A stretch of 64,000 nucleotides of DNA, from contig NZ_SDPN01000005.1 in assembly GCF_004134825.1 (NCBI RefSeq), forward strand, positions 62,001-126,000, in the 5' to 3' direction. Below are positions 5,679-43,068 of this stretch, piece after piece. Origin of the DNA: Agromyces albus (GTDB lineage: Bacteria > Actinomycetota > Actinomycetes > Actinomycetales > Microbacteriaceae). The position numbers were made by a program, and so were the translations under genes. Below the pieces are notes generated by a model. That model was given only the letters and a program-made list of their open reading frames with translations. It searched no databases and was not told the origin of the DNA. Numbering within the stretch: the stretch's first letter is position 1; every line of letters begins with the position of its first letter.

Positions 5679-6721
5679 GATGCTGCGACGCCCTTTCCGG
5701 CTCGAATGGCGAGTCGTTGTCGGAATCCTCGCAACGCCTCTGCGGTCGTGGGCGACTGCAACAGGCACACGGCGGTGACGACCGCGGCCTTGAAGACCAT
5801 GGTCGCGATCGGCGGGATGCCGACGGTGTAGACCGTCGTGACGAGCGTCTGGATCACGAGCGCCCCGACGAGGGTGCCCACGAGCGAGTACCGCCCACCG
5901 GCGAGCGACGTGCCGCCGATGACGACCGCGAGGATCGCGTCGAGCTCGATGAACAACCCGGTGTTGTTCGCGTCGGCCGCGGCGGTGTTCGCGGTGAGGA
6001 TGAGCCCCGCGATCGCGGCGCAGAACGCGCTGAACGTGTAGACGACGAAGAGGAGCCCTCGCGCCCGGACGCCCGCCTGGCGGCTCGCCTCGGGGTTGAT
6101 GCCGACCGACTCGATGAACATGCCGAGCGCCGTGCGGCGCGTGACGAGCGCGGCGACCGCGAAGACCACCGCAGCGATGATCACCGCGATCGGGATGCCG
6201 AACCAGAACCCCGACCCGAGGAACTTGAACGGCGGGCTGTTGACCGTGAGGATCTGCCCCTCGGTGATGAGCATCGCGATGCCGCGACCGGCCGTCATGA
6301 GGATGAGCGTCGCGATGATCGGCTGCACGCCGACGACGGCGACGAGGAATCCGTTCCACATGCCGAGCACGAGCGCGATGAGCATCGCCACCGTCACGGC
6401 GACGGCCACCGTCGAGAGGCTCCCGGGCGTCGGCGATCCGAGGATGATCGAGCACGCGACGGCACCCGAGATCGCGCACACCGCGCCGACCGAGAGGTCG
6501 ATGCCGCGGGTGGCGATCACGAGCGTCATGCCGATCGCGATGATGAGCGTCGGCGCGCCGTTGCGCAGGATGTCGATGAGGCTTCCGAACAGGTGCCCGT
6601 CGCGAATGGTGACGGTGAAGAACCCCGGGAAGGCGATCAGGTTGATGGTGAAGAGCACGAGGAGCATCACGACGGGCCAGAACAGCCGGTGCGCGACGAC
6701 CCGAGCGAACAGGGCGCTCAT
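5675..6721 (-). CDS. ytfT: CUT2 sugar ABC transporter permease, YtfT-like
   Basis: 348 residues, multispanning. The hallmark IATRGIDLSVGAVCAISG and the RRTALGMFIESVGINPEASRQAG segment mark a CUT2 (ribose/galactofuranose type) permease. It overlaps the ATPase gene upstream (6718-6721) and the YjfF-like gene downstream (5675-5678), each by ATGA. Its product pairs with YjfF-like protein and is powered by the double-cassette ATPase. Confidence 0.82.
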   Translation of the reverse strand: MSALFARVVAHRLFWPVVMLLVLFTINLIAFPGFFTVTIRDGHLFGSLIDILRNGAPTLIIAIGMTLVIATRGIDLSVGAVCAISGAVACSIILGSPTPGSLSTVAVAVTVAMLIALVLGMWNGFLVAVVGVQPIIATLILMTAGRGIAMLITEGQILTVNSPPFKFLGSGFWFGIPIAVIIAAVVFAVAALVTRRTALGMFIESVGINPEASRQAGVRARGLLFVVYTFSAFCAAIAGLILTANTAAADANNTGLFIELDAILAVVIGGTSLAGGRYSLVGTLVGALVIQTLVTTVYTVGIPPIATMVFKAAVVTAVCLLQSPTTAEALRGFRQRLAIRAGKGVAAS

Positions 6722-8385
6722 CGGCGGCCTCCTGGAACATTGTCGATGGTGAGGTGGTCGGAGGTCTCGGATGCGTCGGATGCCCCGAGCACGGCGACGC
6801 GATCGCCGTTCGTGCCGCTTGCGGCATCCGTGTCATCCGCTTCGACGGAGCCGTCGGCGATGAGCGCGAGCAGCGCGTCGACGGTGAGCCCGTCGTTCTC
6901 GAGGTCGGCGACGACGTGACGGTCGCGCAGCACCACGACGCGGTGGCTGAGGCGCAGCACCTCTTCGAGCTCGGCGGAGATGAACAGCACGCTCATGCCG
7001 TTCTCGGCGAGGTTGAAGACGAGCTTCTGGATCTCGGCCTTCGCGCCGATGTCGATGCCGCGCGTCGGCTCGTCGAGGATCAGCAGGCCGGGTGCGATGG
7101 CGAGCCAGCGGGCGAGCAGCACTTTCTGCTGGTTGCCGCCCGAGAGGTTGCGCACGAGCGCGTCGGGATTGCCCGGACGGATGTGGAGGGCCTGGATGTA
7201 GCTCTGCGTGAGCTCGTCGCGACGCTTCTTTGGGATGGGACGGAACCATCCGCGATCGGCCTGCAGGGCGAGCACGATGTTGTCGCGCACCGTGAGGTCG
7301 CCGACGATGCCCTCGTCGCGGCGGTTCTCTGACGAGAACGCGATGCGGTGCGAGATCGCCTGGCGCGGCGTGCGCAGCTTCGTGGCCTTGCCGCGGATCG
7401 TGAGCTCGCCGGAGTCGGCGCGGTCGATGCCGCCGAGAAGGCGCGCGAGCTCGGTGCGACCCGAGCCGAGCAGGCCGGCGAGACCCACGACCTCGCCCAC
7501 GGCGATCGGCAGGTCGGCCGGGTTGATCGCGCCGCGACGGCCGAGCCGTGCGGCGGTCACGAAGTTCGCGGCATCCGACTCATCGACGACGACGGACCGA
7601 GCGCGCTGCTCGAGATCGTCGAGCGTCGTGAGCTCTTTGCCGATCATCTTCTGCACGAGGTCGATGCGCAGGAGCTCTTCGGTGAGGTACTCCCCCACGA
7701 GCTTGCCGTTGCGCAGCACCGTGAGTCGATCGCAGATCTCGTAGACCTGGTCGAGGAAGTGCGAGACGAAGAGGATCGCGACGCCCTGCTCCTTCAGCGA
7801 GCGGATGACGCGGAAGAGCTCGGCCACCTCGTCGGTGTCGAGGCTCGAGGTGGGCTCGTCGAGGATCAGGACCTTCGCCTGCACGTCGATCGCGCGGGCG
7901 ATCGCGATGAGCTGCTGCACCGCGAGCGAGTGGTCGCCGAGCAGCGAGCCCGGGTCGATGTCGAGATTGAGCCCTGCGAGGAGCTGCGCCGAGCGGCGGC
8001 GCATGGCCCGCCAGTCGATCGAGCCGAACCGGCGGGGCTCCCGGCCGAGCATGATGTTCTCGGCGACCGACAGGTTCGGCAGCAGGTGCACCTCTTGGTA
8101 CACCGTCGAGATGCCGGCGGCCTGCGCTTGTGCCGGGCCGCTGAACGACACCTGGTCGCCGGCGAGTGTGATGGTGCCCGCGTCGATGCCGTACACACCG
8201 GTGAGCGCCTTGATGAGCGTGGACTTGCCGGCGCCGTTCTCGCCCATGAGCGAGTGCACCTCGCCGGGGAACATTCGGAAGTCGACGTCGTCGAGTGCCT
8301 TGACGCCCGGGAAGGTGATCGAGATGCCGCGCATCTCGACGACCGCCGTGGGCGGGTCGGTGTGGTTGGTCACGGTGCTCTCCAT
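6718..8385 (-). CDS. ytfR: CUT2 sugar ABC transporter ATP-binding protein, YtfR-like (two cassettes)
   Basis: About 555 residues with two fused ABC cassettes. Cassette 1 has Walker [10 protein letters not shown] (residues 48-56) and Walker B LILDEPTSSLD. Cassette 2 has the degenerate P-loop GLLGSGRTE, signature [10 protein letters not shown] and [17 protein letters not shown], as in RbsA/AraG/YtfR. The start is uncertain: 8385 (MESTVTNH) is chosen, with in-frame ATGs at 8415 and 8481. The 8481 start falls inside a strong hairpin and is unlikely. No clear Shine-Dalgarno sequence precedes any of them. Confidence 0.88.
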   Translation of the reverse strand: MESTVTNHTDPPTAVVEMRGISITFPGVKALDDVDFRMFPGEVHSLMGENGAGKSTLIKALTGVYGIDAGTITLAGDQVSFSGPAQAQAAGISTVYQEVHLLPNLSVAENIMLGREPRRFGSIDWRAMRRRSAQLLAGLNLDIDPGSLLGDHSLAVQQLIAIARAIDVQAKVLILDEPTSSLDTDEVAELFRVIRSLKEQGVAILFVSHFLDQVYEICDRLTVLRNGKLVGEYLTEELLRIDLVQKMIGKELTTLDDLEQRARSVVVDESDAANFVTAARLGRRGAINPADLPIAVGEVVGLAGLLGSGRTELARLLGGIDRADSGELTIRGKATKLRTPRQAISHRIAFSSENRRDEGIVGDLTVRDNIVLALQADRGWFRPIPKKRRDELTQSYIQALHIRPGNPDALVRNLSGGNQQKVLLARWLAIAPGLLILDEPTRGIDIGAKAEIQKLVFNLAENGMSVLFISAELEEVLRLSHRVVVLRDRHVVADLENDGLTVDALLALIADGSVEADDTDAASGTNGDRVAVLGASDASETSDHLTIDNVPGGRR

Positions 8386-8466
8386 CGAGTCGTCGGTGGG
8401 CCGGTCACGGGGCATCCGGCGTCGGATGCGGCCGCCGGGGCCGACACGGTTCTGAGAATACGGGGT

Positions 8467-8536
8467 GCGGGTGCGCGGCATGGATCCCGCGCACCCGCCC
8501 GACGATCCGGTCGGCGGATGCCCCGAGGCATCCGCC
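8467..8536 (-). promoter_or_regulatory. Two tandem intercistronic hairpins between binding-protein and ATPase genes
   Basis: Hairpin 1 pairs 8513-8522 with 8527-8536 (GGCGGATGCC/GGCATCCGCC, loop CCGA). Hairpin 2 pairs 8467-8478 with 8487-8498 (12 bp, 8-nt loop). Neither is followed by a T-run. Such structures after a solute-binding protein gene typically protect the upstream mRNA or attenuate downstream transcription, giving more binding protein than membrane subunits. Confidence 0.65.
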
Positions 8537-8545
8537 GGCTCGGAA

Positions 8546-9523
8546 TCAGTACTGCCGGTCGGGCAGGGCCTCGATGGCCTGCTCCTGGTTGAATTCGCCT
8601 TCTTCGGTGATGATGCGCTTCTCGGGGGTCTCGCCGGCGTTGATCTGCTCGACGATCTCGACGAGCTGCTTGCCGAGCAGCGGCGAGCACTCGACGATGT
8701 AGTTGATCTTGCCGTCGGCGAGGGCCTGCATGCCGTCTTTCACGGCGTCGATCGTGAGGATCTTGATGTCGACGCCCGGAACGAGCCCGGCCGCCTCGAT
8801 GGCCTCGATCGCGCCGAGACCCATGTCGTCGTTGTGCGCGTAGATGAGGTCGACGCCCGGGTTGGACTTCAGGAGCGCCTCGGTGACCTGCTTGCCACCG
8901 GCACGGGTGAAGTCACCCGTCTGGCTCGCAACGACCTGGAGGTTGGGGTTCTCGGCGATGACCTCGGCGAAGCCCTCGGCGCGGTCGATCGCCGGAGCGG
9001 CGCCCGTCGTGCCCTCGAGCTGGATGATCTCGACGGGCTCGGTCGCGTCGGCGAATTCGGCGAGCGCCCAGGCGCCGGCCTTCTCGCCCTCGACGACGAA
9101 GTCGGAGCCGAGGAACGACTCGTAGAGCGAGTCATCCTTCGAGTCGACCGCACGGTCGGTGAGCACGACAGGGATGCCGGCGGCCTTCGCCTCGTTGAGC
9201 ACGGCGTCCCAGCCGGTCTCGACGACCGGCGAGAAGGCGATCACGTCGACCTGCTGCTGGATGTAGGAGCGGATCGCCTTGATCTGGTTCTCCTGCTTCT
9301 GCTGCGCGTCGGAGAACTTGAGCTCGATGCCGGCCTCTTCGAAAGCGGCCTGGATGTCCTTCGTGTTCGCCGTGCGCCATCCGCTCTCAGAGCCGACCTG
9401 CGAGAAGCCCACGACGAGTTCGTCGAGAGGCTTGGGACCGGATGCCTCGCCGGCGCCGTTGGCGCAACCTGCGAGTGCGACGAGCATTGCTCCGGCCGCT
9501 GCGATTCCGATGAGCTTCTTCAT
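8546..9523 (-). CDS. ytfQ: Sugar ABC transporter substrate-binding lipoprotein, YtfQ-like
   Basis: 325 residues. A short signal peptide ends in the lipobox LAGC (Cys at about residue 19), so the protein is anchored outside the membrane by a lipid. The mature part is a periplasmic-binding fold of the ribose/galactofuranose class, with ELVVGFSQVGSESGWR at its start and the VLTDRAVDSKDDSLYESFLG segment typical of YtfQ. A strong AAGGAGG ribosome site precedes the ATG. It heads the ytfQRT-yjfF unit and is driven by an operator-bearing promoter at 9612-9641. Confidence 0.87.
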   Translation of the reverse strand: MKKLIGIAAAGAMLVALAGCANGAGEASGPKPLDELVVGFSQVGSESGWRTANTKDIQAAFEEAGIELKFSDAQQKQENQIKAIRSYIQQQVDVIAFSPVVETGWDAVLNEAKAAGIPVVLTDRAVDSKDDSLYESFLGSDFVVEGEKAGAWALAEFADATEPVEIIQLEGTTGAAPAIDRAEGFAEVIAENPNLQVVASQTGDFTRAGGKQVTEALLKSNPGVDLIYAHNDDMGLGAIEAIEAAGLVPGVDIKILTIDAVKDGMQALADGKINYIVECSPLLGKQLVEIVEQINAGETPEKRIITEEGEFNQEQAIEALPDRQY

Positions 9524-9611
9524 CTGGATGAACCTCCTTGTTCAATGAGCCGGCCTGAGCGTGCTGCGTTCCTGGTGTGCCGGACGACGGGGTCGTTCCT
9601 GTCGTTCTTGG

Positions 9612-31395: not shown

Positions 31396-33330
31396 TCAGC
31401 CCTCGAGCACGGGCCGCTCCGCCTGCTGTCGATAGAGCGAGGCGTAGACGCCCTCGGCCCCCACGAGCTCAGCGTGCGTACCCCGTTCGACGATCCTGCC
31501 CCCGGCGATGACGAAGATCACGTCGGCCGCCACGACCGTCGAGAGGCGGTGCGCGATCGCGATGGTCGTGCGCCCGCGCGCGGCATCGTCGAGCGCCTCC
31601 TGCACCACGCGCTCCGAGATCGTGTCGAGGGCGCTCGTCGCCTCGTCGAGCACGAGCACCGCGGGATCCTTCAGCAGCACCCGGGCGATCGCGATGCGCT
31701 GCTTCTCGCCGCCCGAGAGCCGGTATCCGCGCTCGCCCACGACGGTGTCGTAGCCCTCTGGGAATGAGGCGATGGTCTCGTGGATGTTCGCGGCCCGAGC
31801 GGCGGCCTCGACCTCGGCGTCGGTGGCGTCGGGCTTCGCGTAGCGCAGGTTCTCGCCGATCGTGGCATGGAAGAGGTACGTCTCCTGGCTCACGATGCCG
31901 ATGTTCGAGATGAGCGACTCCTGGCGGAGCTCTCGCACGTCGACCCCGGCGAAGCGCACCGAGCCGGCGGATGCCTCGTACAGTCGCGGCACGAGGTAGG
32001 AGACCGTCGTCTTGCCTGCTCCACTCGGCCCCACGAACGCCGCGAACTGGCCGGGCTCGATCACGAAGCTCACGCCGTCGAGAGTCGGACGCGAGTCGCC
32101 GTCGGTGTCGGGGTAGCGGAAGCTGACGTCGTCGAACTCGACGCGACCGAGCGACCCGTCGGCGGGAACCTCACGGGCGTCGGCGCGATCGGTGATCGAC
32201 GGCTTCAGGTCGAGGTACTCGAAGATCCGGGCGAAGAGCGCGCTCGACGTCTGCAGGTCGAGCGCGACGCGCATGAGGCCCATGAGGGGGAAGAGGAGTC
32301 GCGCCTGCACGGTCGTGAACGCGACGATGGTTCCGGCGGTGACATCCGCAGCGCCTCCCGTGATGAGCCAGCCCGCGACCAGATAGACGATCGCGGGGAT
32401 CGACGACATGAAGATGTTCACCATCGCGAAGAACCATTGGCCGGTCATCTGCTGCCGCACCTGCAGGGCGATCTGGTTGCGGTTCTCGTCGGCGTAGCGA
32501 TCGATCTCGCTGCCCTGCCGGGTGAAGCTCTTCGAGAGCAGGATGCCCGAGACCGAGAGGGTCTCCTGTGTGATCGCCGTCATCTCGGAGAGGGACTCCT
32601 GGGTCTTGCCGGCGATGCGCGCCCGCACCTGCCCCACGCGACGCTGCGCGATCACCATGATGGGCATGAGCACGAGCGCGATCACCGTGAGCTGCCAGTT
32701 CAGGATCACCATCGCGACGAACGCCGAGATCACCGTGACGGTGTTGCCGAGCACGCTCGAGACGGTGTTGGTCAGCACGCCGGCGACCCCGCCCACGTCG
32801 TTCTGCAGGCGGGACTGGATGACGCCCGTCTTCGTGCGGGTGAAGAAGCTGAGCTCCATCGACTGCAGGTGGGTGAAGAGGCGCACGCGGAGCGCGCCCA
32901 TGACCTTGTTGCCGATCGTCGCGGTGAGCCAGGTCTGCCACACCCCGAGCAGCGCCGAGACGATGAACACGGCGATCATCGCGGTGACGAGGCCCGTCAG
33001 CACCGGCACATCAGGGCCGCCCTCGGCGAACAGCCCGTCGTCGAAGGCCCGTTGTGTGAGCAGCGGCGGCACGACGCTGAGCGCAGCGCCCACGAGCACG
33101 AGCACGCCCGTGGTGATGAGCGCGACCTTGTGCGGGGCGAACAGCTCGCCGATGCGGCGCAGGAGATGCGGGATCTTCGGCGCCTCGGCATTGGCCGCGC
33201 GCTGCGCCTCTTCGTCGGCCGAGCCGATGCGGCGGCCGCCGCCCGGGACTCCGCCGCCTCCCGGGCCGCCCGGGCCATGAGTCGTTGCTCCGCCGCGGCC
33301 GCTGCCGCCACGCCCGCCGACATTGCTCAT
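31396..33330 (-). CDS. ABC exporter, fused permease-ATPase (multidrug/lipid type)
   Basis: 644 residues. A Gly-rich N-terminal tail of about 35 residues precedes a six-TM exporter domain (from KVALITTGVLVLVGAAL), then an ATPase with Walker A GPSGAGKTT, Q-loop IVSQETYLFH, signature RLSGGEKQRIAIARVLL and Walker B VLVLDEATSALD, plus the H-loop AHRLSTV. This is the half-transporter type that works as a homodimer or with a partner. No partner is adjacent. Substrate unknown. Its 3' end lies 13 bp from the convergent DUF305 gene. Confidence 0.92.
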   Translation of the reverse strand: MSNVGGRGGSGRGGATTHGPGGPGGGGVPGGGRRIGSADEEAQRAANAEAPKIPHLLRRIGELFAPHKVALITTGVLVLVGAALSVVPPLLTQRAFDDGLFAEGGPDVPVLTGLVTAMIAVFIVSALLGVWQTWLTATIGNKVMGALRVRLFTHLQSMELSFFTRTKTGVIQSRLQNDVGGVAGVLTNTVSSVLGNTVTVISAFVAMVILNWQLTVIALVLMPIMVIAQRRVGQVRARIAGKTQESLSEMTAITQETLSVSGILLSKSFTRQGSEIDRYADENRNQIALQVRQQMTGQWFFAMVNIFMSSIPAIVYLVAGWLITGGAADVTAGTIVAFTTVQARLLFPLMGLMRVALDLQTSSALFARIFEYLDLKPSITDRADAREVPADGSLGRVEFDDVSFRYPDTDGDSRPTLDGVSFVIEPGQFAAFVGPSGAGKTTVSYLVPRLYEASAGSVRFAGVDVRELRQESLISNIGIVSQETYLFHATIGENLRYAKPDATDAEVEAAARAANIHETIASFPEGYDTVVGERGYRLSGGEKQRIAIARVLLKDPAVLVLDEATSALDTISERVVQEALDDAARGRTTIAIAHRLSTVVAADVIFVIAGGRIVERGTHAELVGAEGVYASLYRQQAERPVLEG

Positions 33331-33542: not shown

Positions 33543-35066
33543 ATGCAGGAGTCACCCGAAGACCCCGCTGGGATCTCATGGCGTACCATCGCCCGCGAGT
33601 GCGGATCAGCCCTGCGCAGTCGCATCAGCACTGAACCCGAGCAGTCCTGGTCGAGCGACCCCGCGAAGCTGCTCGCACTCGCGGGCGGCTTCCGCGCCGC
33701 CGGTGCAACGAACCCGTACGCGGCCGAACCGTACCTCGACGCCGCCGATGCCCTCCTCGCCGACGGCACGGCGGAGCCGGGCCTCACGGCGCTCGCCCTG
33801 GTCGTGCGCTCGGTCACGATGCGCGAGCTCGGGCGCTACTCATCGGCTCGCAGTCTCCTCCGAACGGCCAGCGGTTCACTCGCCAGGGCCGACCTCTCAT
33901 TCAGCGAGCGGATCGAGCTCAGGGCCCTCGTGGTCATGCACGAGGGCTTCTGCGAACTCCAGCAGGGCGACCTCGACTCGGCACGGAGGACGCTCGTGCG
34001 CGCCCTCCATCTGGCCGGCGACCGAACGGCACCCGCCCTCCTTGCCGAGGGGTACGGATGCACCGCGCTCATCGAACTGCGCACGGGCAGTCTCCGCGAC
34101 GCCGAGGCGACCATCACCACGGCACTCGAAATCGCCCGATCCGCCGAGCTCGGCAACGAACCCTGCACAGCGCCCGCACGGCTCGCACAGGCCTCGCTGG
34201 CCATCGAGCGCGGACAGCTCGACGGGGTCGGCGATCGACTCGCCGAGCTCGCACATGACACCGCAGGCACCGAATACGCGCCGCTCGTTCTCGCCATGAC
34301 CAGCAGCTTCCATGAAGCAGTCGGCGACGACGACGGCGCGATGGATGACCTGCAGGAGTTGCAGCTCGTGATCCGCGACTGGGAGGCGCCGAGTCTTTCA
34401 CGGACCCTGCACGACTACGCGCGGGTGGGACTGCTCGTGCGGCATCAGGAAACGGCGAGCGCTCGCGCGCAACTCGCGCGACTCGAACCGGATGCCACCC
34501 ACTCCCGGTGCCCCGCGGCATGGTCTGCGCGAATCGCGCTCGACACCGGCGACTATGCCGGTGCGATCGAGCTCACCAACCCGTGCCTCGCAATGGGTGA
34601 CATGCACGCGCCTGGTACCGCGACGCTCGCGAACCTCGCGAACGCGGCCGCACACGACCTGCTCGGCGACGTCAAGACCGCCGACACGCTCTTCGCTCGC
34701 GCGCTCCTGCTGGCCTCTTCTGCTGGACTCGTGCGACCGTTCGGCTTCCTGCCTCGCCAGCACCTCGCCCAACTCGTCGAGCGGGCCAACGGCATGCGGC
34801 AACCCCAGCACGTGCAGCGGATGCTCGAACTGATCTCGACGAGGCTCACCGATGATCACGCGGATGGCGCCGCCGTACTGAGCCCGAGAGAGCACATCGT
34901 GCTCGAGCGACTCGTCGAGGGCGAAACGCAGCAGCGCATCTCATTCGAGCTCTCGGTGTCGCCGAACACGGTCAAGACACAGTTGCGCAGCATCTACCGC
35001 AAGCTCGGTGTGACGACCCGGGACGGCGCGGTGCAACGGGCTCGCACCCTCGGAATCATCAGCTGA
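33543..35066 (+). CDS. LuxR-type transcriptional regulator with TPR-like helical repeats
   Basis: 507 residues; ATG behind AAAGGAGG. The long N-terminal part (about 30-430) is Ala/Leu-rich helical repeat sequence resembling the TPR region of MalT/LAL regulators, but without an ATP-binding domain. The C-terminal GerE-type helix-turn-helix is LSPREHIVLERLVEGETQQR through SPNTVKTQLRSIYRKLGVTT (about 446-495). There is no receiver domain, so control is probably by protein or ligand contact. The next gene, 192 bp on, encodes a surface protein and is a likely target. Confidence 0.88.
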   Translation: MQESPEDPAGISWRTIARECGSALRSRISTEPEQSWSSDPAKLLALAGGFRAAGATNPYAAEPYLDAADALLADGTAEPGLTALALVVRSVTMRELGRYSSARSLLRTASGSLARADLSFSERIELRALVVMHEGFCELQQGDLDSARRTLVRALHLAGDRTAPALLAEGYGCTALIELRTGSLRDAEATITTALEIARSAELGNEPCTAPARLAQASLAIERGQLDGVGDRLAELAHDTAGTEYAPLVLAMTSSFHEAVGDDDGAMDDLQELQLVIRDWEAPSLSRTLHDYARVGLLVRHQETASARAQLARLEPDATHSRCPAAWSARIALDTGDYAGAIELTNPCLAMGDMHAPGTATLANLANAAAHDLLGDVKTADTLFARALLLASSAGLVRPFGFLPRQHLAQLVERANGMRQPQHVQRMLELISTRLTDDHADGAAVLSPREHIVLERLVEGETQQRISFELSVSPNTVKTQLRSIYRKLGVTTRDGAVQRARTLGIIS

Positions 35067-35120: not shown

Positions 35121-35184
35121 GTGACCTGTTCAGGATCATCACAGGTTCACCCTCCGGTCACCATTCGAAGCTCTCACAGGTCAC
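35121..35184 (+). promoter_or_regulatory. Three ACAGGT(T)CAC sites upstream of the surface protein
   Basis: GTGACCTGT (35121-35129, inverted), ACAGGTTCAC (35141-35150) and ACAGGTCAC (35176-35184) lie 75-140 bp before the start of the surface protein. The first two form an inverted repeat; the third is a direct copy. A plausible binding array for the upstream LuxR-type regulator. Confidence 0.5.
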
Positions 35185-35258
35185 CCGCCGGGTGGTGCTT
35201 GCATGAGCCCTGTATGGCCACCCGAGCCATCGATCCTTTCAGAAGGAGGGGGACACCG

Positions 35259-36482
35259 ATGCATTCACGCAAGGGTCTCGCTGAGCGACATGAGGGACGA
35301 CCCGAATCGTTCCGCGATAATCAAGCGACCGAAGACCGTCAGAAATGGCGGCGAGTACTCGCCGCGATCGCCATTTCAGCTCTCGCCGTCGGCGGTATGA
35401 GCGCCTTGGTGGCTTCGCCTGCCGCAGCCGACGAGGGCACGGAGGTCGTTCTGGAGGAAGCGGCCGAACTCGTCGAGGAGGTGACCGAGCCGGCTGAGGT
35501 CGAGGAGGTCGAGGAGGTCGTCGAGGAAGTCGTCGAAGAGGTCGTCGAACCCGTCGTCGAGGAAGTCGTCGAAGAGGTCGTCGAACCCGTTGTCGAAGAG
35601 GTCGTCGAACCCGCGGCCGAGGCTGTCGTCGAAGATTCGGCCCAATCACTCGCCAAGGTCGCTGACGAGGAGGTGACCACGGAGCTCGAAGCTCCCATCG
35701 TCGCGCTTCTCGTACCGCCGGACCCCGAAGAGGTCATCCACCAGATCGACATCTGTCACTCCACGGGTGCGCACAACAACCCGTACGTGATCAACCATCC
35801 GGCTGCCGACGGCGATGTCGCAGGACACGCCGATCACACCGGACCGATCTGGTTCCCGGGCATCGAGGTCGAATGGGGCGACATCATCCCGCCGTTCACC
35901 TATGAAGGAGGGGGCGGAGAGATACTCACCTTCGAGGGTCTGAACTGGGACGCCTTCGGACAGCTGATCTTCGAGAACGACTGCAACATTCCGCCCGCGG
36001 AGCTGGCAGTCACGGCCGTGGCATGCCCCACCCATGGCGGCACGGGAACCGTGTCGTTCTCGGTGATCTTCCTGCTGGACGAGGACTACCGCTTGACGAT
36101 CCTCGACTCCGAAGGCGCATTCGTCGACGCGGTGACGTTCGACGGTGCCGGGGGTGCCGGGACGTTCGAGGGTTCCTTCTCGCTACCGCCTGGTAACTAC
36201 GAGATCGTGTTCGAGCAGCTGAACGGCCAGGCAACCGAGCTCGACCGGCAGCTCTTCACGATCGGCGCCTGCCCGCCGCCGCCTCCGCCGCCTCCGCCGG
36301 CACCGCCGGCACCGCCGGCACCGCCGGCACCGGCACCCGTGGTTCCCGTGAAGACGCTCGCAGCGACGGGCGCCGAGACGGCTGAGCCGCTCCTGGCAGG
36401 TGGCATGATCATGCTGCTGCTGGGCGGGGCGGCGCTGCTTGCAGCGAACCGCCGCCGCTGGGGAACCTCGCACTCCGAGTAG
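35259..36482 (+). CDS. LAxTG-anchored surface protein with Val-Glu repeat stalk
   Basis: 407 residues from the ATG at 35259 (AGAAGGAGG site). Order: long signal peptide with hydrophobic core at about 33-53; acidic VEEV/VEPV repeat stalk (about 61-125); a small domain beginning DICHSTGAHNNPYVINHP (about 164-181) and closing WGDIIPPF (207-213); a beta-rich domain around VACPTHGGTGTVSFSVIF; a Pro-rich linker; then LAATG (367-371), a hydrophobic helix and an RRR tail. The last part is a class E sortase signal. Its partner or ligand is unknown. It ends before a strong terminator. Confidence 0.85.
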   Translation: MHSRKGLAERHEGRPESFRDNQATEDRQKWRRVLAAIAISALAVGGMSALVASPAAADEGTEVVLEEAAELVEEVTEPAEVEEVEEVVEEVVEEVVEPVVEEVVEEVVEPVVEEVVEPAAEAVVEDSAQSLAKVADEEVTTELEAPIVALLVPPDPEEVIHQIDICHSTGAHNNPYVINHPAADGDVAGHADHTGPIWFPGIEVEWGDIIPPFTYEGGGGEILTFEGLNWDAFGQLIFENDCNIPPAELAVTAVACPTHGGTGTVSFSVIFLLDEDYRLTILDSEGAFVDAVTFDGAGGAGTFEGSFSLPPGNYEIVFEQLNGQATELDRQLFTIGACPPPPPPPPPAPPAPPAPPAPAPVVPVKTLAATGAETAEPLLAGGMIMLLLGGAALLAANRRRWGTSHSE

Positions 36483-36501
36483 TCGAGATCCTGCAACGAA
36501 C

Positions 36502-36549: not shown

Positions 36550-37536
36550 CTACCCCTTCGTCGAGCCCGCCAGCAGGCCGCGCACGAAGTAGCGCTGCAG
36601 GCTGAAGAACACGATGAGCGGAATGATCAGCGAGATGAAGGCGGCGGCCGTGAGGCGCTGCCACTCCTGACCGCGGTTTCCGGTGAGCTCCGCCAATCGC
36701 TGGGTCAGCGGCGCGACATCCGCTGTGCCTCCTGAGAAGACGAGCGCGACCAGCAGGTCGTTCCAGACCCAGAGGAACTGGAAGATGGCGAACGACGCGA
36801 GGATCGGCACCGACAGCGGGAGGATGATCCGGAGGAAGATCTGCCCGTGGTTGGCGCCGTCGACCCGTGCTGCCTCGACGAGTTCGTTCGGGATGTCCGA
36901 GATGAAGTTGTGCAACAGGAAGATCGCGAGCGGGAGTCCGAAGATCGTGTGCGCGATCCAGACCTGGATGTAGCTCTGGTCGGGGATGATCGGGATGACG
37001 TCGTGGATCGCCCGCTGGACCGGCAGCAGCCAGGTCGTGAACATCTGCAGCAGCGGGATGAGCGCCATCTGCAGCGGCACGATCTGCAGCGCGAAGATCG
37101 CGATGAAGATGATGCCCGCGCCCTTGAACGGGATCCACGCCAGTGCGTAGGCCGCCATCGCGGCGAGCACCGTCGCGAACACGACCACGGGGACCGTGAT
37201 CGCGATCGAGTTCACGAAGTACGAGCCGAGCTGCGGCGCCGACGACGACGACGACAACAGCACCTCGCTGTAGTTGTCGAGGGTCCAGCCCCAGTTCTCG
37301 AAGATGGTCCACCAGCCGGTGGTCTTGATGAGCTCCTCTGGCCGGAACGACGAGATGAGCAGGCCGAAGGTGGGGATGACCCAGATCACCGCGATGATGA
37401 GGGAGACGATCGTGGCCGTGCGCGAGGTCAGCCGCTTCTTGACGCGAGTCGCCTTCGTGCCGTCGGCGTTGTACCCGCGGCGAAGCTCGGCTTTCGTGTC
37501 GGAGTCGACCGGGATCTCGATCGGTGTGTAGGTCAT
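36550..37536 (-). CDS. CUT1 carbohydrate ABC transporter permease, MalG-like
   Basis: 328 residues, six membrane segments. The EAA loop is seen as ELVEAARVDGANHGQIFLRIILPLSVP (about 213-239), the contact site for a MalK-type ATPase. The N-terminal cytoplasmic part is charged (KATRVKKRLTS). It overlaps the MalF-like gene by 4 bp. No ATPase is encoded in this operon, so it must use a shared MsiK-type ATPase from elsewhere, as is usual in actinobacteria. Confidence 0.9.
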   Translation of the reverse strand: MTYTPIEIPVDSDTKAELRRGYNADGTKATRVKKRLTSRTATIVSLIIAVIWVIPTFGLLISSFRPEELIKTTGWWTIFENWGWTLDNYSEVLLSSSSSAPQLGSYFVNSIAITVPVVVFATVLAAMAAYALAWIPFKGAGIIFIAIFALQIVPLQMALIPLLQMFTTWLLPVQRAIHDVIPIIPDQSYIQVWIAHTIFGLPLAIFLLHNFISDIPNELVEAARVDGANHGQIFLRIILPLSVPILASFAIFQFLWVWNDLLVALVFSGGTADVAPLTQRLAELTGNRGQEWQRLTAAAFISLIIPLIVFFSLQRYFVRGLLAGSTKG

Positions 37537-41349: not shown

Positions 41350-43068
41350 ATGTCGACGAATCATAGCCACCCTCAGTCATCCGGTCATGGGATTTCGCGC
41401 AGGTCCTTCGTAGCGGGTGCCTCCATCGCCGTGCCGCTGGCCATCTTCGCCCCCGCCGGAGCATCCGCGGTCCCGGGCGGAACCCGCCGGCCAGTTCCGC
41501 GCATCGCCGCGGCATCGGGCGCGACGTCAACGTACGCTCACCCCGGGCTCGTGCACACCCTGTCAGATCTCGAGCGCGCGTCGGCGCAGGTCGCCGGCGG
41601 CGCCGAGCCGTGGGCGGGAGGCTGGGGCCGCCTCGTCGCGAACGGCCGCTCGAGCGCGGGGTGGTCGCCGCGTCCGGTCGAGACCGTCATCCGCGGCGGT
41701 GACGGATCGAACTACGGGCCGCTGTTCCTCGACATCCATGCCGCCTACCAGAACGCCCTGCGGTGGCACATCTCGGGCGAGGAGGCTCACGGTGCCACCG
41801 CGGTGCGGATCCTCAACGCATGGTCGGCGACGCTGAAGACGGTCACGGGCAACGCCGACCGCTTCCTCGCCGCGGGCATCTACGGCTACCAGTTCGCGAA
41901 TGCGGCCGAGCTGGTGCGCGATCGCCCCGACTTCGAGTTCGAGCGATTCCGCGAGATGCTGCTCGGAATCTTCCACCCGATGAACGAGCACTTCCTCACG
42001 AACCACAACGGTGCGGTGATCACGAACTACTGGGCGAACTGGGACCTCTGCAACATGGCGTCGATCCTCGCGATCGGCATCTTCGCCGACCGCGACGACC
42101 TCGTCGACCGGGCCGTCGAGTACTTCCACAACGGTGCAGGGAACGGCTCCCTGCCGCACGCCGTGCCCTTCGTCTATGACGACCAGGGCCTCGCGCAGTG
42201 GCAGGAGAGCGGTCGCGACCAGGCGCACTCGATCATGGGCATCGGACTCATGGGCGCGTTCTGCGAGATGGCCTGGAACCAGGGCATCGACTGCTACGGC
42301 GTGGATGACAACCGCTTCCTCAAGGGCGCCGAGTACGTCGCGAAGTACAACCTCGGGCACGACGTGCCGTTCACGCCGTACACCTGGCAGTCGGGTCCGT
42401 CGACCACCGCGTCCCACGCCGGCTGGCAGACGCACACCGTCCCGAGTCCGTCCGCTCGCGGACAGGGCCGACCGGTGTGGGACCAGGTGCTGGGGCACTA
42501 CTCGGGCCGCATGGGACTCGACACCCCATGGGTCGCGCAGATCGCCGAGAGCCTGCGACCCGATGGCGGAGGCGGCGACTACGGCCCGAACTCGGGAGGA
42601 TACGACCAGCTCGGATTCGGCACCCTCATGCAATACCCGGCCGAGACGGGCAGGCGCGTCGTGCGGCTGCAGAGCTTCAACTACCCCGAGCGCTACGTTC
42701 GGCATTCGGGAACGGCGGTGCGAATCGACCCGACGGCGTCGCCGCTCGGAGATTCCCAGTTCCGGGTGGTTCCGGGCCTTGCCGGCACTGCCGACGGGCG
42801 TGTCTCCTTCGAGTCCGTCGACGCGCCCGGTCACTTCCTGCGGCACGCGAGCTACAGGCTCGGTCTCGTCAGGAATGACGGCTCGGCGCAATTCGCCGCC
42901 GATGCCACGTTCCTCCCGGTCGCGGGGCTGGCGCACTCCCGACTCACGTCATTCCGGGCGCACAACTTCGCCGACCGCTACCTCCGTCACTACGCCTACG
43001 GCCTCCGGCTCGATCCGGTCTCGACCGACCTCGCTCGCGCCGACGCGACGTTCCGCATGGTCGACTGA
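41350..43068 (+). CDS. Tat-exported polysaccharide lyase (alginate-lyase fold) with C-terminal AbfB/CBM42 domain
   Basis: 572 residues. The N-terminus has a twin-arginine signal (ISRRSFVAGASIAVPLAIFA). Residues about 60-430 form an alpha-helical lyase domain with LFLDIHAAYQNALRWHISG, NHNGAVITNYWANWDLCN and DQAHSIMGIGLMGAF, where Asn, His and Tyr residues probably form the active site. Residues about 435-572 repeat SFNYPERYVRHSG and SFRAHNFADRYLRHYA, the arabinofuranose-binding CBM42 beta-trefoil pattern. It probably cuts an arabinose-decorated uronic polymer outside the cell. The neighbouring importer would take up products. Confidence 0.8.
   Translation: MSTNHSHPQSSGHGISRRSFVAGASIAVPLAIFAPAGASAVPGGTRRPVPRIAAASGATSTYAHPGLVHTLSDLERASAQVAGGAEPWAGGWGRLVANGRSSAGWSPRPVETVIRGGDGSNYGPLFLDIHAAYQNALRWHISGEEAHGATAVRILNAWSATLKTVTGNADRFLAAGIYGYQFANAAELVRDRPDFEFERFREMLLGIFHPMNEHFLTNHNGAVITNYWANWDLCNMASILAIGIFADRDDLVDRAVEYFHNGAGNGSLPHAVPFVYDDQGLAQWQESGRDQAHSIMGIGLMGAFCEMAWNQGIDCYGVDDNRFLKGAEYVAKYNLGHDVPFTPYTWQSGPSTTASHAGWQTHTVPSPSARGQGRPVWDQVLGHYSGRMGLDTPWVAQIAESLRPDGGGGDYGPNSGGYDQLGFGTLMQYPAETGRRVVRLQSFNYPERYVRHSGTAVRIDPTASPLGDSQFRVVPGLAGTADGRVSFESVDAPGHFLRHASYRLGLVRNDGSAQFAADATFLPVAGLAHSRLTSFRAHNFADRYLRHYAYGLRLDPVSTDLARADATFRMVD

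Follow-up and report, generated by a model that had tools for sequence, protein, structure and literature searches.

A sortase-anchored type of surface protein in Agromyces albus carries a CH-DIIPP domain found in no family searched and is encoded at a probably regulated, fast-varying locus

Introduction

Adhesins of Gram-positive bacteria combining an LPXTG anchor with Ig-like or SpaA-type repeats are known, and LuxR-type regulators of the MalT/LAL type are activators. A surface protein encoded by the soil bacterium Agromyces albus in the window (that is, the whole 64-kb stretch of DNA that was analysed) resembles these adhesins in having a stalk, a tip domain, an Ig-like unit and an anchor, but its tip domain has no counterpart found among solved folds. 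The adjacent regulator resembles the MalT/LAL-type activators, with a LuxR HTH, a sub-threshold match to TPR_MalT and spaced direct-repeat sites upstream of the surface gene; unlike them, it showed no ATPase domain in the Pfam scan, and its presumed target is a surface protein gene. A third point of comparison is Streptomyces ChpC, described as a LAXTG substrate of the class E sortases of Actinobacteria (PMC5148588). With such substrates the A. albus protein shares an LAATG motif, a hydrophobic stretch, a basic tail and a class E sortase encoded in the genome, and it differs from them in an exposed domain without a chaplin family match, a variable acidic stalk and a LuxR-linked slot.

The plan of a sortase-anchored surface protein is ordinary. 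Its tip domain is strongly conserved and uncatalogued in the sources searched, and the spread of this domain over Actinomycetota, Patescibacteria and phages is unusual. With roughly even confidence, we read the protein as a regulated, fast-varying surface recognition or adhesion protein, anchored by a class E sortase, in which a tip domain with a metal-shaped site stands on an acidic spacer.

Architecture and predicted wall anchoring

The gene occupies exactly the reading frame given in the initial annotation of this DNA (Table 1). The 36-bp Val-Glu repeat reported there is also real, Tandem Repeats Finder placing it at 35517-35609 (2.6 copies, 94% matches), nested in the 12-bp periodicity that forms the core of a wider acidic stalk. 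The stalk length, then put at about 65 residues, falls between the strict VEEV/VEPV portion (ca. 34 residues) and the entire acidic stretch, for which boundaries set by the analyst give 87 residues with 39% D/E and 1% K/R.

Table 1. Features of the surface protein gene and its surroundings, in positions of the window
Feature	Position	Strand	Basis or remark
ABC exporter, left edge of the slot	31396..33330	-	
LuxR-type regulator	33543..35066	+	LuxR HTH 49.2 bits; sub-threshold TPR_MalT match, 35.9 vs. 45
TCACC site 1 of the conserved triplet	35147..35151	+	
TCACC site 2, 11 bp on	35158..35162	+	
TCACC site 3, 23 bp on	35181..35185	+	
Nearly invariant GTGCTTGCAT..TGTAYGGC block	35195..35218	+	single changes in L059 and in L062
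AAGGAGG ribosome-binding site, 9 bases 5' of the ATG	35243..35249	+	sequence
Surface protein gene, 407 aa (Agromyces albus)	35259..36482	+	ATG 35259, stop 36482
Polar/basic N-terminal tail and signal-peptide-like hydrophobic stretch, ending in ASPAAA	35259..35426	+	read from translation
Val-Glu stalk repeat, 12-bp period with 36-bp higher period	35508..35609	+	
CH..H..H..WGDIIPPF..C domain (CH-DIIPP domain), in no family searched	35745..35987	+	search, alignment, model
Ig-like beta-sandwich domain	35994..36269	+	model residues 88-182
Proline-rich (Pro/Ala) linker	36276..36332	+	sequence
LAATG sorting motif, ahead of a hydrophobic stretch and the RRR tail	36357..36371	+	translation, NCBIfam
Sugar-type ABC permease, right edge of the slot	36550..37536	-	'sugar' read from operon

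The class E sorting signal proposed at the C-terminus was borne out by the LAATG motif, hydrophobic stretch and RRR tail, together with a class E sortase encoded in the genome. The NCBIfam model LPXTG_anchor scored over its cut-off (16.5 vs. 15.9) and strep_LAETG just under its own (27.6 vs. 30). Two genes match the sortase family PF04203 above cut-off, and the search for a class E enzyme that the initial annotation had suggested found one of them, L001 (NF033747, 243.3 bits vs. a cut-off of 160), which contains TTCNP. The second sortase-like gene (L002:1120-2133, minus strand) reached 54.8 against the class E cut-off of 160 and reads ILTTARGAP where L001 has ITLTTCNP (compared by eye); it seems to be without the catalytic Cys and may be a non-catalytic relative. 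The ABC gene beside it resembles pstB.

All 22 further genomes tested, each bearing the domain and represented by 22 of the 36 loci of the motif scan described below, encode a PF04203 sortase. Among 69 distinct closed ORFs with the domain, 48 end in a hydrophobic stretch with K/R, L[PA]x[TS]G being present in 33 of the 48, and this tail is absent from 21, including very small proteins consisting of little more than the domain. Wall display of the window protein is well supported by these predicted signals: the class E sortase would anchor the protein, and the acidic spacer would hold a small recognition domain off the cell wall. The open-access literature searched contained nothing joining sortase, Agromyces and surface protein.

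Conservation and predicted fold of the CH-DIIPP domain

In the window protein, the conserved residues of the domain come in the order CHSTG..NPY..H..H..WGDIIPPF..GLNW..C. The check for a known family, another suggestion of the initial annotation, placed the domain in none of Pfam, NCBIfam and PHROGs. Neither the protein in Pfam nor the domain in Pfam and NCBIfam matched any family at E<=1; the protein matched only anchor models and chance-level entries in NCBIfam, and the single PHROGs match of the window member (E 0.34) fell on the Ig part. When 37 members were compared with the three collections, no family fitted, matches being limited to one or two members each, and the best Pfam match was DUF7155 in one member (E 0.0013). 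A sequence search of the PDB returned no credible relative of the domain. In the open-access papers searched, the string DIIPPF had no match, and the matches to five motif strings were unrelated, as judged by title. For a possible resemblance to a CHIPPGNP-type motif, a scan run without a positive control had matches in 0 of 197 genomes.

A motif scan of GTDB genomes, which required [ED]WGDIIPP or NPYV[IV]N[EH]P, returned 36 loci. Together with the window they share 13 invariant columns (C8, H9, P17, H32, H35, W48, G49, D50, I51, I52, P53, P54 and N71), with C84 kept in at least 90%; the invariance of the stretches that the scan required, WGDIIPP with Asp50 among them, is partly due to this choice of loci. 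Profile A6 gave 101 distinct matches across all loci, 84 of them filling at least 60 columns, and 52 of those 84 lie outside the scan loci, some being second copies of scan genes. All 32 members contributed by the motif scan have the residues CH..H..H..D[IVL]xP in this order, as do 46 of the 52 others. Column by column, the members outside the scan loci keep the first Cys in 52/52, the first His in 49/52, the later His in 37/52 and 37/50, the Asp in 48/52, the Asn in 51/52 and the last Cys in 48/48. In three of the six pattern misses, Cys-Leu replaces Cys-His and the His pair is missing too, a joint loss that would be expected if these residues work together. Over all 84 matches, the two Cys columns are conserved in 84/84 and 78/78. 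Eight members found by sequence search alone have C, H, T, D, G, N, W and the last C invariant, the Asp being kept in 8/8, and the later His columns are not. The CHxTG-NPY-DIIPPF domain pointed out at the outset is thus real and far from chance, its residues recurring in 36 other loci and in members found without the motif.

The set CH..H..H..D provides the conserved ligand-type residues looked for in a candidate metal site. The earlier suggestion that His residues of this domain bind metal is strengthened by their conservation, while metal binding itself stays putative. Most likely, His9, His32, His35 and Asp50 would bind a metal ion, which could shape or form a site that recognises a ligand on another cell, a glycan or a phage. 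The conserved polar His, Asp and Asn (the latter in 83/84) of this compact domain might instead build a small metal-dependent active site, such as that of a hydrolase acting on wall or extracellular polymers. Such an enzyme has a slim chance in our estimate, as the domain comprises only some 80 residues, had no fold or family match to an enzyme among those found, and is repeated within several proteins, as binding modules are.

AlphaFold modelled the two domains together with a pLDDT of 90.9; this model was matched through its Ig part, and the CH-DIIPP domain was therefore refolded alone (pLDDT 88.9, pTM 0.81). The resulting model comprises strands 7-10 and 18-21, helix 25-29, strands 55-58 and 64-67, and helix 74-81, consistent with a beta-beta-alpha / beta-beta-alpha unit that would probably be closed by a Cys8-Cys84 disulfide. 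Against the PDB, the domain alone gave a best E of 2.0 with Foldseek and Z>=2 in 0 of 195 chains with VIA-align; the absence of a structural match to this model falls short of proving a new fold. The second domain is modelled as an Ig-like sandwich of the ordinary kind (Z 9.7-10.2 over 83-92 residues, among the 50 matches listed). A BFVD search returned one match, A0A5J6TPX3 (E 0.018, probability 0.99, 249 aa), which fits phage Mimi gp189 by length (both 249 aa) and is a candidate for the same protein. A strictly kept Cys pair and nearly fixed His and Asp across several phyla, with neither a catalogue entry nor a known fold found, make the domain a clear target for a first structure.

Distribution among bacteria

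As a single query, the plain window domain had no matches in genome contigs, plasmids or phages, and its relatives were reached with the family alignment or another member as query. Counting the own genome each time, the domain was found in 8/199 genomes of the family by single-sequence search, in 32/60 genomes of the genus (E<=0.01) and 21/394 of the class (E<=0.001) with profile A1, and in 8/296 of the phylum (E<=0.0001) with profile A6. The 36 scan loci, two of which (L098 and L103) share one bin, come from Agromyces, Aeromicrobium, Rhodoluna and other actinobacterial bins, and also from Gottesmanbacteria, Yanofskybacteria, Dojkabacteria, WWE3, Moraniibacteriota, Saccharibacteria and Berkelbacteria bins and one Dehalococcoidia bin. 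In the phylum of the Gottesmanbacteria genome, the domain occurred in 13/286 genomes, four of them already known from the scan. The pattern had been recognised as that of actinobacterial surface proteins; it does occur in Actinomycetota but is not limited to them, being present in Patescibacteria bins, the Dehalococcoidia bin and phages. The Patescibacteria, which have small genomes, are a radiation that includes episymbionts of actinobacteria.

In a tree of 39 rows and 88 columns, the resolution of which is that of a short domain with 17/36 inner branches open and of bins that may hold foreign contigs, at least three changes on starred branches are required to account for the Actinomycetota, and the seven-row group of the window (93/96, not starred) contains a Dojkabacteria row. 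A second count, on Patescibacteria labels, gave six changes with rows L077 and L086 labelled by guess; the genome of L077 was later drawn within the Gottesmanbacteria phylum. Transfer of the domain between phyla appears likely from these patterns.

Large members from Patescibacteria carry the domain amid many repeats (by eye). Small secreted proteins of about the size of the domain were also observed (L067:5448-5786, L068:5410-5757 and L069:5022-5438). In L067 and L068, a gene near the small version resembles purA, and the ORF neighbours of such versions (L067-L070) gave no functional clue.

Phage and viral copies

In gp190, the domain protein of Arthrobacter phage Racecar, a signal stretch precedes the domain, after which come MPDTG, a hydrophobic stretch and the residues KRRESK. 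A whole-protein search with gp190 returned seven records from six phages, all on A. globiformis (Racecar, Talia1610, Mimi, Atuin, Qui with two records, and Paella). In the five copies whose tails were read, the motif before the hydrophobic stretch is MPDTG (Racecar, Talia1610), TPDTG (Mimi), TANTG (Atuin) or LPEMG (Qui). These tails are anchor-like and qualify as predicted anchors only, and none of the NCBIfam anchor models scored above cut-off in Racecar, Atuin, Mimi or the IMG/VR protein described next. In the Mimi copy, CQ replaces CH and the His pair is lost. An annotated minor tail protein precedes the gene in Racecar and Mimi, and the secreted Arthrobacter phage domain proteins at L164:5851-6642, L171:5896-6666, L172:5875-6624 and L174:4935-5654 are annotated solely as hypothetical or membrane protein.

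A further copy, on a 100-kb IMG/VR contig (L163:4494-5897), is secreted, with a Pro/Thr stalk, LPSSG and a hydrophobic basic tail. Viral scans with profile A3 led to one contig and with A7 to the same contig again, and those with the phage sequence itself and with the short-loop group gave no contigs. Infected cells, we infer, may display the phage domain proteins.

A slot between exporter and permease

In eight other Agromyces genomes the exporter lies to the left of the surface gene, with further sequence between them in L063 and L064, and the same permease lies to its right in the seven Agromyces loci whose contig reaches that far. The LuxR gene is present at six of the nine Agromyces loci, the window included. 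With at most 25 candidates scored per genome, a search of 60 genomes of the genus for LuxR orthologues (E<=1e-60) returned precisely these six genomes, each with the surface gene beside LuxR. For comparison, 20 of the 47 remaining permease-bearing genomes were chosen non-randomly. Each of the 20 has the exporter as the next neighbour of the permease, and LuxR and the surface protein had no match there at 1e-10; the gap between aligned ends measures 77-299 bases in 11 and 0.8-3.2 kb in nine. The domain occurs elsewhere in the genome in 13 of these 20. At least in L146 (gap 7897-9544) and L162 (gap 6304-9550), the same slot is occupied, as judged by eye, by Ig-type surface proteins that lack the CH domain. 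The interval between exporter and permease looks like a cargo slot for surface genes. Near the exporter in L063 and L064, a second region resembling the Ig part of the surface protein was observed (L063:11381-11662 and L064:11223-11513).

These neighbours bear on another possible role, in which the anchored domain, instead of making contact, would store or sense a transition metal at the cell surface. The conserved His set and Asp, the acidic stalk and the free-standing small secreted versions in Agromyces are all in keeping with metal capture. We nevertheless regard it as rather unlikely, for the gene is flanked by an exporter-type ABC protein, a LuxR regulator and an apparent sugar transporter operon with no recognised metal transporter among them, and metal capture gives no reason for the phage copies or for the exchange of the exposed part described below.

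Putative upstream control region

Within 180 bases 5' of the start, three TCACC units at 11- and 23-bp steps occur in 6/6 loci with LuxR, and the three loci without it hold 0, 1 and 0 TCACC, with the triplet in 0/3. At each of the six loci, no more than 0.1% of 2000 single-base shuffles contained as many TCACC units as observed; the six genomes are related, so that the common footprint does not amount to six independent events. In this small sample, the operator-like footprint is limited to loci with the regulator. The repeat array noticed upstream of the gene is present, but the ACAGGT(T)CAC form first given for it is kept only in the nearest relatives, the conserved core being the three TCACC units. 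The idea of regulated display is likewise strengthened, by the co-occurrence of LuxR and by the common triplet, while regulation itself remains putative. The neighbouring LuxR-type regulator would most likely activate the gene by binding the three units. The GTGCTTGCAT..TGTAYGGC block is a possible core promoter, and no match to a sigma-70 consensus promoter was found. With its regulator, three-site operator and exchangeable surface gene, the Agromyces locus offers a compact system, dissectable in soil strains.

Divergence of the exposed part

Comparison with two sister genomes revealed a valley of divergence over the surface gene. In the segments compared over exporter and transporter, 92-100% of the nucleotides are identical, and over LuxR 82-98%, with a dip to 82-84% already inside LuxR; only 8 and 70 of 250 bases of the stalk could be aligned, the domain reaches 78-80% and the Ig part 61-70%, and identity is back to 95% at 36501, beyond the surface gene, the outer flanks being at about 95%. 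At the protein level, identity is 96-99% for exporter and transporter, 90-94% for LuxR and, within the surface protein, 90-93% in the N-terminus, 72-80% in the domain, 46-65% in the Ig unit and 86-91% in the anchor. Synonymous divergence (dS) reaches 0.34-0.60 in the exposed domains, compared with 0.06-0.20 for exporter and transporter and 0.22-0.44 for LuxR; this rise in the exposed part is as indicative of recombinational import as of selection. Omega values of 0.20-0.45 in the CH-DIIPP domain and 0.46-1.09 in the Ig unit are no proof of positive selection. A value of 2.4 in the anchor was set aside, with very few synonymous changes over 43 codons.

The stalk is replaced outright between orthologues, the Val-Glu repeat of the window giving way to Ala/Gln/Glu or Ala/Glu/Lys repeats or, elsewhere, to Pro/Glu. 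In the nine orthologues measured, it is 75-150 aa long, acidic residues making up 18-39% of it and basic ones 0-8%, though the repeats differ, and it looks like a spacer selected for composition. The CH-DIIPP domain could itself be a structural spacer or mechanical wall unit conserved for folding alone, a role compatible with its occurrence alongside Ig-like and other repeats in long proteins and with the Cys pair kept in every member having both columns. We consider this improbable: polar residues such as the conserved His and Asp are seldom fixed by folding alone, and the neighbouring Ig unit diverges more than the CH-DIIPP domain does.

Recognition or adhesion is the likeliest task of the protein, and its locus varies fast and is probably regulated. 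The exposed part would be exchanged or diversified fast while the near promoter, the signal peptide and the anchor stay, as might be expected of a surface contact molecule pressed by phages or neighbours. More speculatively, CH-DIIPP could be a contact module common to actinobacteria, Patescibacteria and Arthrobacter phages, with which bacteria bind or refuse neighbours and a secreted, anchor-tailed phage copy alters the surface of the infected cell, for example to exclude a second phage; related bacteria would then swap the exposed part, in the manner of an antigen cassette, at a LuxR-controlled locus. We think this wider picture doubtful. The presence of the domain in Patescibacteria and in phages of soil actinobacteria makes it testable whether one surface module serves contact or exclusion in actinobacteria, reduced-genome bacteria and phages alike.

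Rfam and tRNA scans of the 64-kb window gave no matches. Further along the window, positions 41350-43068 encode an alginate-lyase-like protein with an AbfB domain, adjoining a LacI regulator.
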